DNA from: Tabrizicola flagellatus
GTDB lineage: Bacteria; Pseudomonadota; Alphaproteobacteria; Rhodobacterales; Rhodobacteraceae
Assembly: GCF_008271465.1 (NCBI RefSeq)
Contig: NZ_VMDU01000010.1
Span: 1 to 64,000, forward strand
Length of the DNA stretch: 64,000 nt
Direction: 5' to 3'
This document shows, one piece after another, positions 17,793 to 21,749 of the stretch. The position numbers and the translations under genes are program-made. Under the pieces are notes generated by a model that saw nothing but the letters and a program-made list of their open reading frames with translations, was not told the origin of the DNA and did no database searches. How positions within the stretch are numbered: the first letter of the stretch is position 1; the number at the start of each line of letters is the position of its first letter.

Positions 17793-17817
17793 AGGTTTAA
17801 TTCCCCGGAATAAACCT
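17793..17817. promoter_or_regulatory. Inverted repeat upstream of the Tat/Ser-rich gene
   Basis: AGGTTTAATTCC-CC-GGAATAAACCT: arms of 12 and 11 bases that pair fully apart from one bulged A. It sits in a locally AT-rich patch within the 280-bp gap between the ligase gene and the Tat-protein gene, about 110 bp before the latter. Could be an operator at the promoter or a short terminator for the ligase gene. Confidence 0.45.
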
Positions 17818-17926
17818 CCGGCAAGTAGCCAGGCGGGCTGTCCGGGTGCATCGATCTTTTCATCCCGGCCGTTACACATCCGTTACCTCCGGGACACGAA
17901 ACCAGCTCGGTAAAGAGGAAAAGACA

Positions 17927-18220
17927 ATGACACCGAAGACAAAGGAAGACATCCTGTCGCGCCGCAAGGCCCTGACCCGGATTGCGGCCCTTGCCCTCGG
18001 CGCCTATGCGGTGCCGGCAGTCACCACCCTGAGCGTCGCCCAGGCGAGCAGCGGATCGAGCGGCTCCAGCTCGTCCAGCGGCTCCAGCTCGTCCAGCGGG
18101 CCGAGCCGCTCGGGTGGCACGGGCGGCACGGGCGGGTCCAGCAGCTCGACCTCGCCCAGCGTCTGCTCTGGGCCGACCGACGATGACGCCGGTTGCAGCA
18201 CGACGGCGCCCAAGCCCTGA
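17927..18220 (+). CDS. Tat-targeted Ser/Gly-rich small protein, possible modified peptide
   Basis: 97 residues in three parts: a charged N terminus, a twin-arginine signal (SRRKALTRIAALALGAYAVP, residues 11-30, ending near SVAQA at 36-40), and a mature region that is almost entirely Ser, Gly and Thr (about 41-78), closed by C80-SGPTDDDAG-C90 and a short tail. ATG 17927 follows AAAGAGGAAAAG. The Tat signal implies export of something folded or modified in the cytoplasm. The next gene is an HPr-kinase-like/PqqD fusion 58 bp downstream, so this may be its substrate; phosphorylation of serines is inference. I do not recognise a named family. Confidence 0.75.
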   Translation: MTPKTKEDILSRRKALTRIAALALGAYAVPAVTTLSVAQASSGSSGSSSSSGSSSSSGPSRSGGTGGTGGSSSSTSPSVCSGPTDDDAGCSTTAPKP

Positions 18221-18235
18221 TTGCGCACCGCAGAT

Positions 18236-18261
18236 CCCTTGGCACCATGCGGTGCCAAGGG
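18236..18261. promoter_or_regulatory. Perfect intercistronic hairpin
   Basis: CCCTTGGCACC-ATGC-GGTGCCAAGGG: 11-bp perfect stem, 4-nt loop, 15 bp after the small-protein stop and 17 bp before the kinase-like gene. No T-run follows, so it is likelier an attenuator or mRNA-stabilising element giving much small protein and little enzyme, the usual expression ratio for a peptide and its modifying enzyme. Confidence 0.7.
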
Positions 18262-18278
18262 TAACAGGACGGCTCGTG

Positions 18279-19496
18279 ATGCATCAGTATGTCACCTTTC
18301 GTGGTCTGCGGGCCCCGCTGCGCCTGGAAGCGGCAGACGAGGTGCTGAGCCTCTTGCCGCAGGTTTTTGCGGGGTGGCCCTTAGAGGCCAGGACAGGCGA
18401 GGCGGGGGCCGCGCCCTTCTTTTCGATCGGCGTAGGCGAGGACGGGCTTCTGGCCTGCGAAAGCCATGTCGATGACCGCCCCGTGCGCCGGTTCGACGCG
18501 GTGAACGCCGTCTGCGACGCCGTATCGGCGATTGCCTTCGCACTGCCGGCCGAGGACGACCGGCTGATCTGCCTGCATGCGGCCGCGGTCGAAATGGCCG
18601 GGCGGCTCGTGGTCTTTCCCAATGTGCGGCGGGCAGGGAAAAGCACGCTGTCCTCGGCCCTGGCCCGGGCGGGGCATCCGCTGTTCAGCGACGATGTGCT
18701 GCCCCTGTCCTTCACCACGGACGACCTGGCCTGGGGGCTGGCCATGGGGATCGCTCCGCGCCTGCGTCTGCCGTTGCCCGGGACGATCGACCCCTTCTTC
18801 CGGGCCTGGGTGGACAGCGTGGGCGGGCCGAAGAACCGGCAGTACCAGTATCTCTGCCTGCCGGACCAGCCGGCGCATGGCGTGGTTCGCCCGCTGGGGG
18901 CTTTCGTGATCCTCGACCGGCGCGACGACCGCACCTTGCCCCGGTTGGAGCCCGTGTCGCCGGATGCGGCAATGGACGCGCTGCTGCATCAGAACTTCAC
19001 CCGCGACCGCCATTCGGGCGACGTTCTGCTGGCGATGGCCTCGGTTCTGGCCCTGCGCCCCGTGTTCCGGCTGACCTATGAAGACCTGTCCGAAGCCGTG
19101 GCCTGCCTGGAGCAGGCCTTTGAGGGCTGGCCGGATGACCTTCCCTCAGAACCAGTCAGCCCGGACCGCCACTTCCGGCTGGCAGAGTTCGGCGCGCAAC
19201 GAATGGCAGATCGCGGCATCCGGGGTCGGGTCCGGCAGCGTGCCGGCACGGTCGCGGCCGAGATCGGCGGCACCCTCTATCTTGCCGATGCCGAGGGGCA
19301 GGCGATCCACCGGATGGACGCGATGGCGGCGCTGATCTGGGAACTTCTGGCCGACCCTGCATTGCCGGAGGACATTGTCGCCGACCTGGCCGAGGCCTTT
19401 CCCGACACGCCGCGCGCCCGGATAGCCGCCGATCTGGAGGCCCTGATCGACAGGCTGGCGCGGGAAGCCCTGATCGACCCGGACACCGAGGGCTGA
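18279..19496 (+). CDS. HPr-kinase-like protein fused to a PqqD/RRE domain
   Basis: 405 residues. The N-terminal ~290 resemble HPr(Ser) kinase-like enzymes: a nucleotide-binding loop FPNVRRAGKSTL (113-124, the first P-loop Gly replaced), an upstream H100 in ICLHAAAV, and HPLFSDDVLPL (133-143) with the acidic pair that in HprK binds metal and serves as base. The C-terminal ~85 (about 316-400) form a PqqD-type winged helix, including YLADAEGQAIHRMDAMAALIW and LIDRLAREALID. PqqD/RRE domains grip leader peptides in RiPP systems, and HprK-like enzymes phosphorylate lasso peptides, so this looks like a peptide kinase carrying its own recognition domain. ATG 18279 with AGGAC upstream. Linked to the preceding Tat peptide. 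Confidence 0.78.
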   Translation: MHQYVTFRGLRAPLRLEAADEVLSLLPQVFAGWPLEARTGEAGAAPFFSIGVGEDGLLACESHVDDRPVRRFDAVNAVCDAVSAIAFALPAEDDRLICLHAAAVEMAGRLVVFPNVRRAGKSTLSSALARAGHPLFSDDVLPLSFTTDDLAWGLAMGIAPRLRLPLPGTIDPFFRAWVDSVGGPKNRQYQYLCLPDQPAHGVVRPLGAFVILDRRDDRTLPRLEPVSPDAAMDALLHQNFTRDRHSGDVLLAMASVLALRPVFRLTYEDLSEAVACLEQAFEGWPDDLPSEPVSPDRHFRLAEFGAQRMADRGIRGRVRQRAGTVAAEIGGTLYLADAEGQAIHRMDAMAALIWELLADPALPEDIVADLAEAFPDTPRARIAADLEALIDRLAREALIDPDTEG

Positions 19497-19505
19497 ACCG
19501 GCGGG

Positions 19506-21749
19506 TCAGGTCTTGAGCGTCGCAAGCCAGTCCATCAGCAGCGGCCTGGCGCTTTCGGCGCCCTCTGCCCGGGCCCGGTCGATCACCTTGCGCGCCTCGG
19601 TCAGATCGACCCGGCGCAGCAGCGCCTTGACAGGCCCCACCGAGGCCGGTCGCATCGAGAGGGTCCGGAAGCCGATCGCGGCGAGCGCCAGCGCCTCGAT
19701 CGGCCGGCCCGCGTCCTCGCCGCAGAAGGAGAGGGGGGTGCCCGTCTCGGCGCAGCGGGCGACGACCTGTTCCAGGAAGGACAGGAAAGAGAGGTTCAGC
19801 GTGTCGTAGCGGCGGCGGACGAGTTCGTTCTCGCGGTCGGCGGCGAAGAAGAACTGTTTCAGGTCGTTGCCGCCGACCGAGACGAAATCCGTCAGCTCGA
19901 AGAAGCTTTTTGGCGCGAAGGCCAGCGAGGGCGTCTCCATCATCGCGCCGATCTCGATCCGTTCGGGGACCGGGTGGCCAAGCGACTTTTCGCGGTGCAG
20001 TTCGCGCAATGCGTAGGAGCGCGCCTGCTGGAATTCGCTCATCTCGGTGACGAGGGGAAACATCACGGTCAGGGGCCGGCCCTTCGCGGCACGGATCAGC
20101 GCCTGTAGCTGCATGCGCAGGACGCCGGGTTTGTCGAGGCCCACCCGGACCGCCCGCCAGCCCATGGCGGGGTTCGGTTCCTCGGGCGGCTTCATGTAGG
20201 GCAGCACCTTGTCCGAACCGATGTCGAGCGTGCGGAAGGCCACGCGCTTGCCCTTGGCCGCGTCCATGACGCGGGCATAGAGCGCGGCAAGCTCGGCCCG
20301 TTGCGGCATCCTGGAGCGGATCAGGAATTGCAGTTCGGTGCGGAACAGGCCCACCCCGTCGGCGCCCGAGCCTTCAAGACTGGGCAGGTCGGCCATGAGG
20401 CCCGCGTTCATGTGCAACGAGATCGTCGTGCCGCAGAGCGTGGTCGCAGGAAGGTTGCGCAGGCTGGCATAGCGCTTCTGCGCCTCGGCCTGCATGGCGA
20501 TCTTGTCGCGGAAGGCGCGGGCGACGGTCTCCTCGGGGCGCAGGTGCACGATGCCCTGGTCGCCATCGACGAGGATCGGGTCGCCGTTCAGCGCCTCGGC
20601 CACGATGCGGTCGGCGTTTATGACCAGGGGTATGGCCAGCGCCCGCGCGACGACGGCGGCATGGCTGCCGACGGACCCCTCCTCCAGCACCACGCCCTTC
20701 AGCTTGCGGCCGTAGTCGAGAAGTTCCGCCGGGCCGATGTTGCGCGCAACGAGGACCGGGTTGTCCGGCATCTCGGCGCCGGTGTCCTGCCCCTGGCCTG
20801 TCAGGATGCGGAGGAGACGGTTCGACAGGTCGTCGAGGTCCTGCAACCTTTCGCGCAGATAGGGGTCGGGCACCTGTTCCATCCGCGCGCGGGCGGCGGA
20901 CTGTTCCTTTTCCACCGCCGCCTCGGCCGAGAGGCCGCGCATGATGTCTTCCTCCATCCGGCGCAGCCATCCGCGGGAATGAGCGAACATCCGGTAGGCT
21001 TCCAGCACCTGCTTCTGTTCCTTGTCCAGCTGCTGGGCCTCAAGAAGGTCGTCGATCGAGACGCGCAACTCGCCCACGGCGGCGCGGATGCGGTCGATCT
21101 CGGTCAATGGGTCGTCGGCCACGGGGTTCGTCACCACGACGCGGGGCTCGTGCAGCCAGACCCGCCCCTCGGCCGCGCCTTCCTGGCCCGAGCTGCCGCG
21201 GATCATCACCGGCTGCTTGTGCAGCGCCCGCATGGCGCCATCGCCCGAGGTGAAGGCGCCAAGCTCGGTCATCTCGGCCAGCACCATGGCCACCACGTCC
21301 AGCGCGTAGATCTCGTCCTCGGAAAACTGCCGCGCGGTCTTGGACTGGACGACCAGCACGCCCAGCTTTTCGCCGACCCGCTGGATCGGCACGCCGAGGA
21401 AGGAGGAGAAGAGTTCCTCTCCGGTTTCCGGCATGTAGCGGAAACCCCTTTCGTTCGGGGCGTCGGCGGTGTTGACCGGCTGGCCGGTGCGGGCGACGCG
21501 GCCGACGAGACCCTCGCCCAGCTTCATCCGGGTCTGGTGGACGGCTTCCTTCTTCAGCCCCTCGGTCGCGCAAAGCTCCAGCGTCTCGGGGTCGCGGAAA
21601 AGGTAGATCGAGCAGACCTCGGTCCCCATGCTGTCGGCGATGAGATGGGTGATGCGGTCCAGCCGGTCCTGTCCCTCGCCCGACATGGACAGCACGTCGC
21701 GCAGGCGACGCAGAAGCTTGCGGCTTTCGCTTTCACTCCGGTCCGGCAT
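19506..21749 (-). CDS. ptsP: PTS-Ntr enzyme I (phosphoenolpyruvate-protein phosphotransferase)
   Basis: 747-residue EI-Ntr, first enzyme of the nitrogen-related PTS, which passes phosphate from PEP to NPr and on to EIIA-Ntr. A GAF sensor domain occupies about 27-165 (TEVCSIYLFRDPE, ERGFRYMPETGEELFSSFLGVP). The PTS part has the phospho-acceptor His363 in EEGSVGSHAAVVARAL, then the PEP-binding barrel with GVGLFRTELQFL, DIGSDK, MMETPS and SFCGEDAGRP containing the catalytic Cys. Downstream of a small membrane protein and lysC on the same strand; the lysC-ptsP neighbourhood is common in alphaproteobacteria. Confidence 0.96.
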   Translation of the reverse strand: MPDRSESESRKLLRRLRDVLSMSGEGQDRLDRITHLIADSMGTEVCSIYLFRDPETLELCATEGLKKEAVHQTRMKLGEGLVGRVARTGQPVNTADAPNERGFRYMPETGEELFSSFLGVPIQRVGEKLGVLVVQSKTARQFSEDEIYALDVVAMVLAEMTELGAFTSGDGAMRALHKQPVMIRGSSGQEGAAEGRVWLHEPRVVVTNPVADDPLTEIDRIRAAVGELRVSIDDLLEAQQLDKEQKQVLEAYRMFAHSRGWLRRMEEDIMRGLSAEAAVEKEQSAARARMEQVPDPYLRERLQDLDDLSNRLLRILTGQGQDTGAEMPDNPVLVARNIGPAELLDYGRKLKGVVLEEGSVGSHAAVVARALAIPLVINADRIVAEALNGDPILVDGDQGIVHLRPEETVARAFRDKIAMQAEAQKRYASLRNLPATTLCGTTISLHMNAGLMADLPSLEGSGADGVGLFRTELQFLIRSRMPQRAELAALYARVMDAAKGKRVAFRTLDIGSDKVLPYMKPPEEPNPAMGWRAVRVGLDKPGVLRMQLQALIRAAKGRPLTVMFPLVTEMSEFQQARSYALRELHREKSLGHPVPERIEIGAMMETPSLAFAPKSFFELTDFVSVGGNDLKQFFFAADRENELVRRRYDTLNLSFLSFLEQVVARCAETGTPLSFCGEDAGRPIEALALAAIGFRTLSMRPASVGPVKALLRRVDLTEARKVIDRARAEGAESARPLLMDWLATLKT

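Follow-up and report, generated by a model that had tools for sequence, protein, structure and literature searches.

Analysis of a 64,000-nucleotide window of Tabrizicola flagellatus DNA (contig NZ_VMDU01000010.1; Rhodobacteraceae, Alphaproteobacteria) revealed a gene pair in which a small gene, encoding a serine-rich precursor peptide with a twin-arginine translocation (Tat) signal, is followed by a gene encoding an HprK-like kinase fused to a PqqD-type recognition element (RRE) of the kind that serves ribosomally synthesised and post-translationally modified peptides (RiPPs). We consider it fairly probable that the pair is a RiPP-like phosphopeptide system in which the Tat signal acts as the leader peptide, with both modification and export predicted from sequence. 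The pairing of the two genes and the motif that would connect their products are firm, and conservation of the pair across genera argues against chance.

The initial annotation of this region, made from the letters alone, described both genes accurately. As it stated, the precursor is a 97-residue protein with a twin-arginine signal (S-R-R at residues 11-13), a Ser/Gly/Thr tract (residues 41-79) and a C-x9-C end (C80 to C90), all exact on translation of the open reading frame (ORF), and the perfect 11-bp hairpin placed 15 bp after the precursor gene is present as described (Table 1). The 405-residue fusion contains the AGKST loop (residues 119-123), the SDD pair (S137-D138-D139) and the PqqD C-terminal domain (PF05402, residues 336-399) attributed to it. 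The proposal that a recognition domain fused to a kinase is paired with a peptide gained support from the RRE assignment, the pairing across genomes and a plausible YxxP motif. Neither NCBIfam nor Pfam has a model for the small gene, and beyond the PqqD domain no model of either collection scores above its cut-off for the fusion, which is annotated as 'PqqD family protein' in six plasmid records.

A protein search of 295 genomes of the family gave matches at E up to 1e-3 in 42 genomes, and 24 of these, the source genome included, matched through the fusion itself: in 22 the match was nearly full-length (spanning residues 56-400 in one of them), in another it was broken into two pieces, and in the last a contig end truncates it. 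A leader model (A4; 41 positions and 18 rows, 7 rows coming from these 24 genomes) matched 35 of the 295 genomes at E up to 1e-3, with the best E-value per genome separating them into a stronger set of 24 (2.9e-11 and below) and a weaker set of 11 (1.5e-6 and above). The stronger set is the same 24 genomes that carry the fusion, each with a leader gene directly upstream of it by coordinates; in G132 this adjacent gene is the second leader, and the top-scoring one lies ~2.8 kb from the fusion. The arrangement recurs at 46 named loci, which were collected as relatives of an eight-row subset (A2) of the 22-row fusion alignment (A1) and are mostly from Rhodobacteraceae, with a gill-symbiont record, a gammaproteobacterial metagenome-assembled genome and others among them. 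A leader gene lies 48-238 bp before the matched region at 42 of 45 loci (L099, with only a 153-bp match, was excluded), and the other three are at contig ends, L065 having no upstream DNA and L094 and L097 each being preceded by the tail of a Gly-rich repeat frame. The expectation that homologues of the fusion carry the small gene upstream was therefore borne out in both samples, and 21 of the 46 loci have a second leader gene downstream.

Searching 385 genomes of the class with the fusion profile recovered the fused form as well as a split form, in which a kinase of ~275-335 residues mostly adjoins a PqqD protein of ~90 residues. Among the 29 class loci examined, the fetched flank contained a leader gene at 18, upstream at 17 and downstream at one (L193), where it lies between two kinase matches of G310. 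The remaining 11 had none in the flank, five of them standing beside RegB/RegA-like genes and three (L201, L203, L210) having 506 bp of upstream DNA or less. (Neighbouring genes, here and below, were named by reading their sequences; neighbour clusters and the gene calls at loci L174, L177 and L179 come from a simple caller that may choose wrong frames in GC-rich DNA.) All 11 of these genomes carry a leader elsewhere, as found with a second model (A5; 21 rows from linked leaders only, 14 from the 385-genome sample), and none of their leaders was used in building the leader model. In G502, G591, G321 and G589 a distance of some 37-41 kb separates the unlinked leaders and the kinase; in other genomes such leaders are farther off or on another contig, and tandem leaders are frequent. 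At L200, L202, L206, L207 and L212 the HprK-like kinase is directly 3' of the RegB/RegA-like genes, mostly with an adjoining PqqD gene, and the leader peptides are tens of kb distant and often in tandem.

At E up to 1e-6, A5 matched 35 of the 385 genomes. With a kinase-length cut-off of E up to 1e-25, both elements were found in 33 genomes, the kinase only in one (G478), the leader only in two (G407, G666) and neither in 349; a leader is thus present in 33 of 34 kinase-length genomes versus 2 of 351 others (Fisher p nominally 3e-44, both cut-offs having been chosen after the lists were seen). In the leader-only genomes the kinase match spans just 64 residues (G666) and 50 residues (G407).

The C-terminal domain of the fusion matches PqqD (PF05402) with E 9.7e-12 and 45.5 bits against a cut-off of 23.4. 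Its best PDB profile match is the lasso RRE TbiB1 (E 5.5e-7 with A1 and 1.8e-6 with a further profile, A3), followed by TfuB1 and two more PqqD-family chains. In the predicted model, residues 318-395 form strands and then three helices, and the RRE assignment draws on this order together with the sequence profiles.

Comparison of 88 distinct leader proteins (alternative starts collapsed, seven fragments or wrong-start reads dropped) revealed a YxxPx(hydrophobic) motif 13-15 residues past the second Arg. A Tyr 13-15 residues after the second Arg was the condition for entering this count, and within it Pro follows at Y+3 in 87 of 88, the exception being an unlinked gene in G206, and the Y+5 residue is hydrophobic in all 88 (L 37, M 20, F 17, V 11, I 3). 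At the leader position, YxxP is absent from all 41 control Tat signals, most of which come from genomes that also supplied leaders; these controls comprised 30 PF10518 loci, six weak leader matches from other genomes and five of the eight weak matches in the source genome, with L132 and L165 being the same protein. A script flagged YxxP in five controls, by eye always more than 25 residues past the twin arginine. Few YxxP-less partners can have been missed at fusion loci, because every locus with enough upstream DNA had a YxxP gene.

Recognition motifs of the YxxP type are published for lasso and PqqD RREs (PMC13381572, PMC12710340). Because the motif resembles these and the C-terminal domain is nearest to TbiB1, the Tat signal probably doubles as a RiPP leader, a handle for the RRE, and binding of the signal peptide by the RRE is likely. 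In 18 of 18 aligned leaders, columns R12, R13, Y27, P30, A38 and A40 are without variation, and the twin arginine is kept in all rows of both models (18/18 in A4, 21/21 in A5, the rows having been picked for the leader). The source genome encodes TatC (E 7.2e-64); with a twin arginine, a hydrophobic stretch and Tat machinery present, export of the precursor is predicted, and the presence of leader motif, RRE and A-x-A site would fit leader recognition and cleavage. An ordinary Tat signal was rejected as a description of the leader: the source genome has one strong match to the leader model (E 6.9e-20), the next being at 0.0145, and presence of the leader tracks the enzyme.

In Tabrizicola aquatica (L055) the two genes share a reading frame and are separated by one stop codon. 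We modelled the read-through chain, with the stop read as Gly and an alignment of 17 more naturally paired rows and 14 fusion rows. In this model residues 2-21 are helical (blocks with a predicted local distance difference test score, pLDDT, of 61 and 65), LTTLSV (residues 31-36), directly after YAAPA, is a strand (block pLDDT 75), and the Ser tract is disordered (30-37). Strands do not form alone, and the leaders of lasso peptides pair with a strand of the RRE; the predicted strand therefore agrees with docking of the leader on the RRE.

The N-terminal half of the fusion has the hallmarks of the HprK/PEPCK superfamily in both fold and P-loop/DD motifs. H100, A119-G-K-S122, D138, D139, R161 and R163 are among the residues unvaried in the 22 aligned fusions, and the pattern H...GK[S/T]...DD is present in all 59 kinases used for a tree; bootstrap support in this tree was unsettled and the RRE-less kinase of L179 formed a long branch, and therefore we claim no evolutionary order. 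The predicted model of the fusion is confident (mean pLDDT 92.9, predicted template-modelling score 0.91). The structural match that the initial annotation expected for this half was found in structure comparison of residues 1-347, most strongly with ATP-dependent phosphoenolpyruvate carboxykinase (PEPCK; Z 15.0 over 272 residues, root-mean-square deviation 4.5). HprK chains were weaker (Foldseek E 1.2e-4 to 7.1e-4, with low TM-scores of 0.28-0.57 by target length), and none was among the 50 structural-alignment (VIA-align) matches listed. By profile, A1 matched the HPr kinase 3tqf (E 7.9e-5), and no HPr kinase reached E 0.01 with A3.

Two curated families were considered for the kinase half. 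HprK-related kinase A (TIGR04352) matches residues 86-142 (E 7.3e-14), and membership was rejected at 51.5 bits against a curated cut-off of 200; seven of eight class kinases also match it far below the cut-off, at 30 to 53 bits. Canonical HPr(Ser) kinase/phosphorylase (TIGR00679) was rejected, with no match listed for the fusion at E up to 1. Characterised relatives point to peptide substrates: PadeK and PsmK phosphorylate Ser of precursor peptides (PMC9266682), and LppK phosphorylates Ser3, placing several phosphates on one Ser (PMC13381572).

The cores that follow the leader are low in complexity and rich in serine. The leader proteins were split by a rough script into 66 small, 19 PepSY-type and three protease rows, some PepSY-type rows being filed as small, and the 65 small cores analysed (one row with N letters removed) include these misfiled rows. 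Ser makes up 0.28 of all residues in the 65 cores, with 895 pairs at lag 3 against 409 expected from shuffles (z 34.6) and enrichment far above shuffles also at lags 6 and 9. This three-residue recurrence of Ser is a trait of the fused clade. The repeat type varies among relatives (SGS, SAA, SEP, SRP, TRP), and 51 of the 65 cores have two Cys with variable spacing. The commonest common feature is a Ser at position 1 or 2 past A-x-A (59/65). In the split, unlinked systems the cores are short, often with PSPC or FPSxC near the start and a second Cys. As an anecdote, VTPC in the leader-only genome G407 corresponds to STPC in G673, a congener with the kinase.

The same leader also stands on larger proteins. 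A PepSY-type protein at L068 (11155-11796) with the YxxP Tat leader matches PF03413 at E 2.4e-5, two more PepSY-type leader proteins match at 0.084 and not at all, and two S8 subtilisin-like peptidases have the leader (S8 match E 5.2e-24 and 9.6e-25), raising the possibility that full-size PepSY-type proteins and S8 peptidases may be substrates. Besides that at L068, such full-size proteins are found at L138 (654-2036) and L095 (8183-9457).

We propose that the cytoplasmic RRE domain of the fusion would bind the YxxPx(hydrophobic) motif in the signal peptide, a step for which the sequences argue strongly. The tethered HprK-like half would then phosphorylate serines just past the signal, as its fold, catalytic residues and characterised relatives suggest, with one acceptor Ser in relatives whose core is short and many, at regular spacing, in Rhodobacteraceae. 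Because the RRE would cover the signal peptide, we propose that the precursor is held back until modified and released, and would then be exported by Tat and cut at A-x-A; Ser phosphorylation preceding export is probable. The phosphorylated, often two-Cys product might act outside the cytoplasmic membrane, conceivably under the control of extracytoplasmic sensing, through two-component-like genes in one clade and sigma-factor genes in another, and through one dedicated dyad in the clade of the window.

Several points weigh against this reading. The Pfam TAT_signal model (PF10518) is not listed for the window precursor at E up to 1, which counts against the Tat assignment. The P-loop of the fused clade lacks its first Gly (NVRRAGKST in the window, mostly PNxRRAGKS), so that nucleotide use may be altered, and this weakens a simple equation of the kinase half with HprK. 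The leader models themselves contain the Y and the P and so bias their matches to YxxP, Met at Y+5 in 20 of the 88 leaders is outside the published residue list, and the strand of the read-through model has no identified partner and no YxxP-less control. Because relatedness makes the genomes non-independent samples, the p-values can be taken only as nominal, and 7 of the 24 family and 14 of the 33 class leader genomes fed rows to the leader models (19 of the 33 did not). The kinase occurs without a leader in G478 and also in G397, just under the cut-off at 5.2e-22. Cores are not conserved and some are Ser-poor, that of L229 having no Ser near the signal and that of L094 being Gly/Thr; the Ser repeats could in part come from the expansion of repeats in DNA of high GC content.

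Some of the same observations could be read as a fusion whose main role is that of a proofreading chaperone for Tat, in which the RRE holds the signal and the nucleotide-binding half times its release while the cargo stays unmodified. TorD/DmsD-type chaperones do such proofreading for redox enzymes. The putative RRE ligand lying inside the signal peptide, the atypical P-loop, the conserved leader on highly variable cores and the use of that leader by PepSY-type proteins and S8 peptidases would all suit such a role. We nevertheless think it unlikely, since enzymes related to the kinase half have been characterised as kinases of precursor peptides, the catalytic motifs are intact in 59 of 59 kinases and a core with Ser is what the otherwise dissimilar cargos most often have in common. 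The sole RRE-less relative, an HprK-like kinase at L179 (7223-8593), still adjoins a Ser-repeat protein, whose twin-arginine signal is without YxxP (a single divergent case).

Less probable again is a phosphate that serves as an intermediate for an unlinked nucleotidylating or glycosylating enzyme, as with PsmN, so that the end product is no phosphopeptide; PsmK/PsmN and LppN are precedents (PMC9266682, PMC13381572), but no neighbour cluster present in at least 5 of the 46 loci reads as a nucleotidyl- or glycosyltransferase, unlinked enzymes not having been searched for. That the HprK-like half phosphorylates a cytoplasmic regulator such as HPr or another phosphotransferase system protein, with the small protein a mere neighbour, is very improbable: the PtsP-like gene that would favour it (19506-21749, convergent with the fusion) is a neighbour only in the window and its Tabrizicola-group relatives (9/46 loci), whereas the leader accompanies the enzyme nearly everywhere, even unlinked, and an RRE domain suits a peptide substrate.

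The phosphopeptide reading can be extended to the whole class, although we regard this extension as doubtful. Here the 40-residue element would be both Tat signal and RRE leader for class-wide Tat-exported phosphopeptides, and the RRE-kinase a gatekeeper that lets nothing be exported unphosphorylated. The periodic poly-Ser cargo of Rhodobacteraceae (SxP, SAA, SGS) would leave the cell interior as a polymer with dense phosphorylation, perhaps able to bind metal, and thus be the bacterial equivalent of phosvitin or SR-type phosphoproteins, and PepSY-type and S8 proteins would be marked in trans. The phosphopeptide reading, if true, would link RiPP leader recognition, Tat quality control and extracellular phosphoproteins, fields that seldom meet, and a handle made of RR, 13 residues and Y-x-x-P, together with a kinase/RRE, would predict substrates genome-wide, full-size proteins included. 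It would also open directly to experiment the question of how a signal for secretion can serve as a modification leader and yet not cause export too early, which the MNIO/bufferin paper raises for Sec (PMC12452194).

Comparison with known systems revealed several likenesses. In paeninodin-type lasso systems the kinases (PadeK, ThcoK, PsmK) phosphorylate the precursor Ser before leader removal (PMC9266682), and, as here, a PqqD-type RRE goes with a YxxP leader motif, the kinases being described as HprK-like in PMC13381572. In contrast, their RRE is a discrete B1 protein, whereas the systems described here join kinase and RRE in one protein or encode them side by side, have a twin-arginine signal in the leader's place and carry either long Ser repeats or short peptides, frequently with two Cys, as cores. 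A lasso cluster was rejected, no cyclase or B2 being recognised among window ORFs at 12-27 kb or clusters in at least 5 of the 46 loci. Separately, two Rhodobacteraceae loci, L174 and L177, have HprK-like kinases with asparagine-synthetase-like genes and genes that read like lasso cyclase/B2; with a YEAPxL small ORF at L177 and a PqqD gene at L174, they resemble phosphorylated lasso peptide clusters.

The LPP system of Bacillota (LppA/LppB/LppK, 2026) likewise combines an RRE, an HprK-like kinase and signal-peptidase-like cleavage, but differs in its signal peptidase I-like peptidase LppS, export pump, nucleoside triphosphate transferase and discrete RRE, and no Tat signal is mentioned in the accessible parts of the paper (PMC13381572). 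Bufferins and other MNIO RiPPs share the replacement of a classical leader by a secretion signal, and preliminary results of the bufferin authors indicate that the signal takes part in recognition (PMC12452194); they differ in using Sec rather than Tat, in their MNIO chemistry and in a DUF2063-type partner without a specific RRE-binding motif (PMC12710340). The nearest curated family is HprK-related kinase A (TIGR04352), with its local match around the P-loop and DD and a score below the cut-off. In the open-licence library searched we found no paper joining HprK with PqqD and none joining a Tat signal peptide with a RiPP leader peptide; papers mentioning both twin-arginine and RiPP precursors were, by title and opening of the abstract, not about such systems, and the word 'kinase' is absent from the main text of two RRE survey papers. 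Thus, for this RiPP-like pair with its predicted Tat export, no curated family was found, nor any paper in that library describing it.

Table 1. Features of the precursor and fusion locus (positions in the window)
Feature	Coordinates	Strand	Basis
Inverted repeat GGTTTA-N11-TAAACC, candidate operator	17794..17816		Conservation upstream of small gene
Small Tat-leader, Ser-rich precursor gene, 97 aa	17927..18220	+	ORF translation; leader gene directly 5' of fusion in 24/24 fusion-bearing family genomes
Twin-arginine signal peptide / putative RRE leader, residues 1-40, end A38-Q-A40	17927..18046	+	Alignment columns
Y-A-V-P-A-V, YxxPx(hydrophobic), predicted RRE ligand	18005..18022	+	Motif counts, 88 leader proteins
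Ser/Gly/Thr tract, putative phospho-acceptor region	18047..18163	+	ORF translation; Ser lag-3 counts
C-x9-C end of core	18164..18196	+	ORF translation
Perfect 11-bp hairpin between precursor and fusion genes	18236..18261	+	Exact sequence, folding energy
HprK-like kinase / PqqD-type RRE fusion gene, 405 aa	18279..19496	+	ORF, Pfam/NCBIfam, alignment, model
Kinase half, residues 1-285: H100, AGKS 119-122, DD 138-139, R161, R163	18279..19133	+	22-sequence alignment
PqqD-type RRE domain, residues 336-399	19284..19475	+	PF05402; PDB profile match TbiB1

The hairpin between the two genes (CCCTTGGCACC-ATGC-GGTGCCAAGGG) starts 15 nt past the precursor stop, and the folding energy of the intergenic region has a z of -3.7 against 60 base-composition shuffles. 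A standard intrinsic terminator was rejected by sequence, there being no T-run after the stem. The initial annotation proposed that the hairpin lowers enzyme relative to peptide levels. A stem of at least 10 bp is present in 5 of 11 close relatives and in 4 of the 31 other loci, and in L054 the 11-bp stem is retained with two compensated pair changes. Together these counts weakly suggest that the hairpin could favour high peptide and low enzyme levels.

Genes with possible regulatory roles adjoin the pair in some relatives. On the 3' side of the PepSY gene, response-regulator-like and histidine-kinase-like genes recur, in clusters present in 19 and 22 of the 46 loci, each cluster having one or two members elsewhere or on the other strand. 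Two Paracoccus plasmids and one Shinella plasmid have, in this order, a divergent sigma-factor gene, an S8 peptidase, a small hypothetical protein (unlisted in one of the three) and a 'PqqD family protein'. In the window's clade neither two-component-like nor sigma-factor genes adjoin the pair.

The window's clade has an inverted repeat instead, with identical half-sites and 11-bp spacing at 12 of 12 loci (the window and L054-L064). It starts 133 bp before the precursor start codon (110 bp between the two), and at L054-L064 its start precedes the small gene by 125-141 bp. The repeat was found at none of the 31 other loci having an upstream leader gene, and it occurs once in the 3.6 Mb source genome, with no copy in a reversed control. 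We propose it as a candidate dedicated operator for a regulator. The initial annotation makes no mention of this conserved dyad, and the region that it picked starts at 17793, the edge of the dyad.

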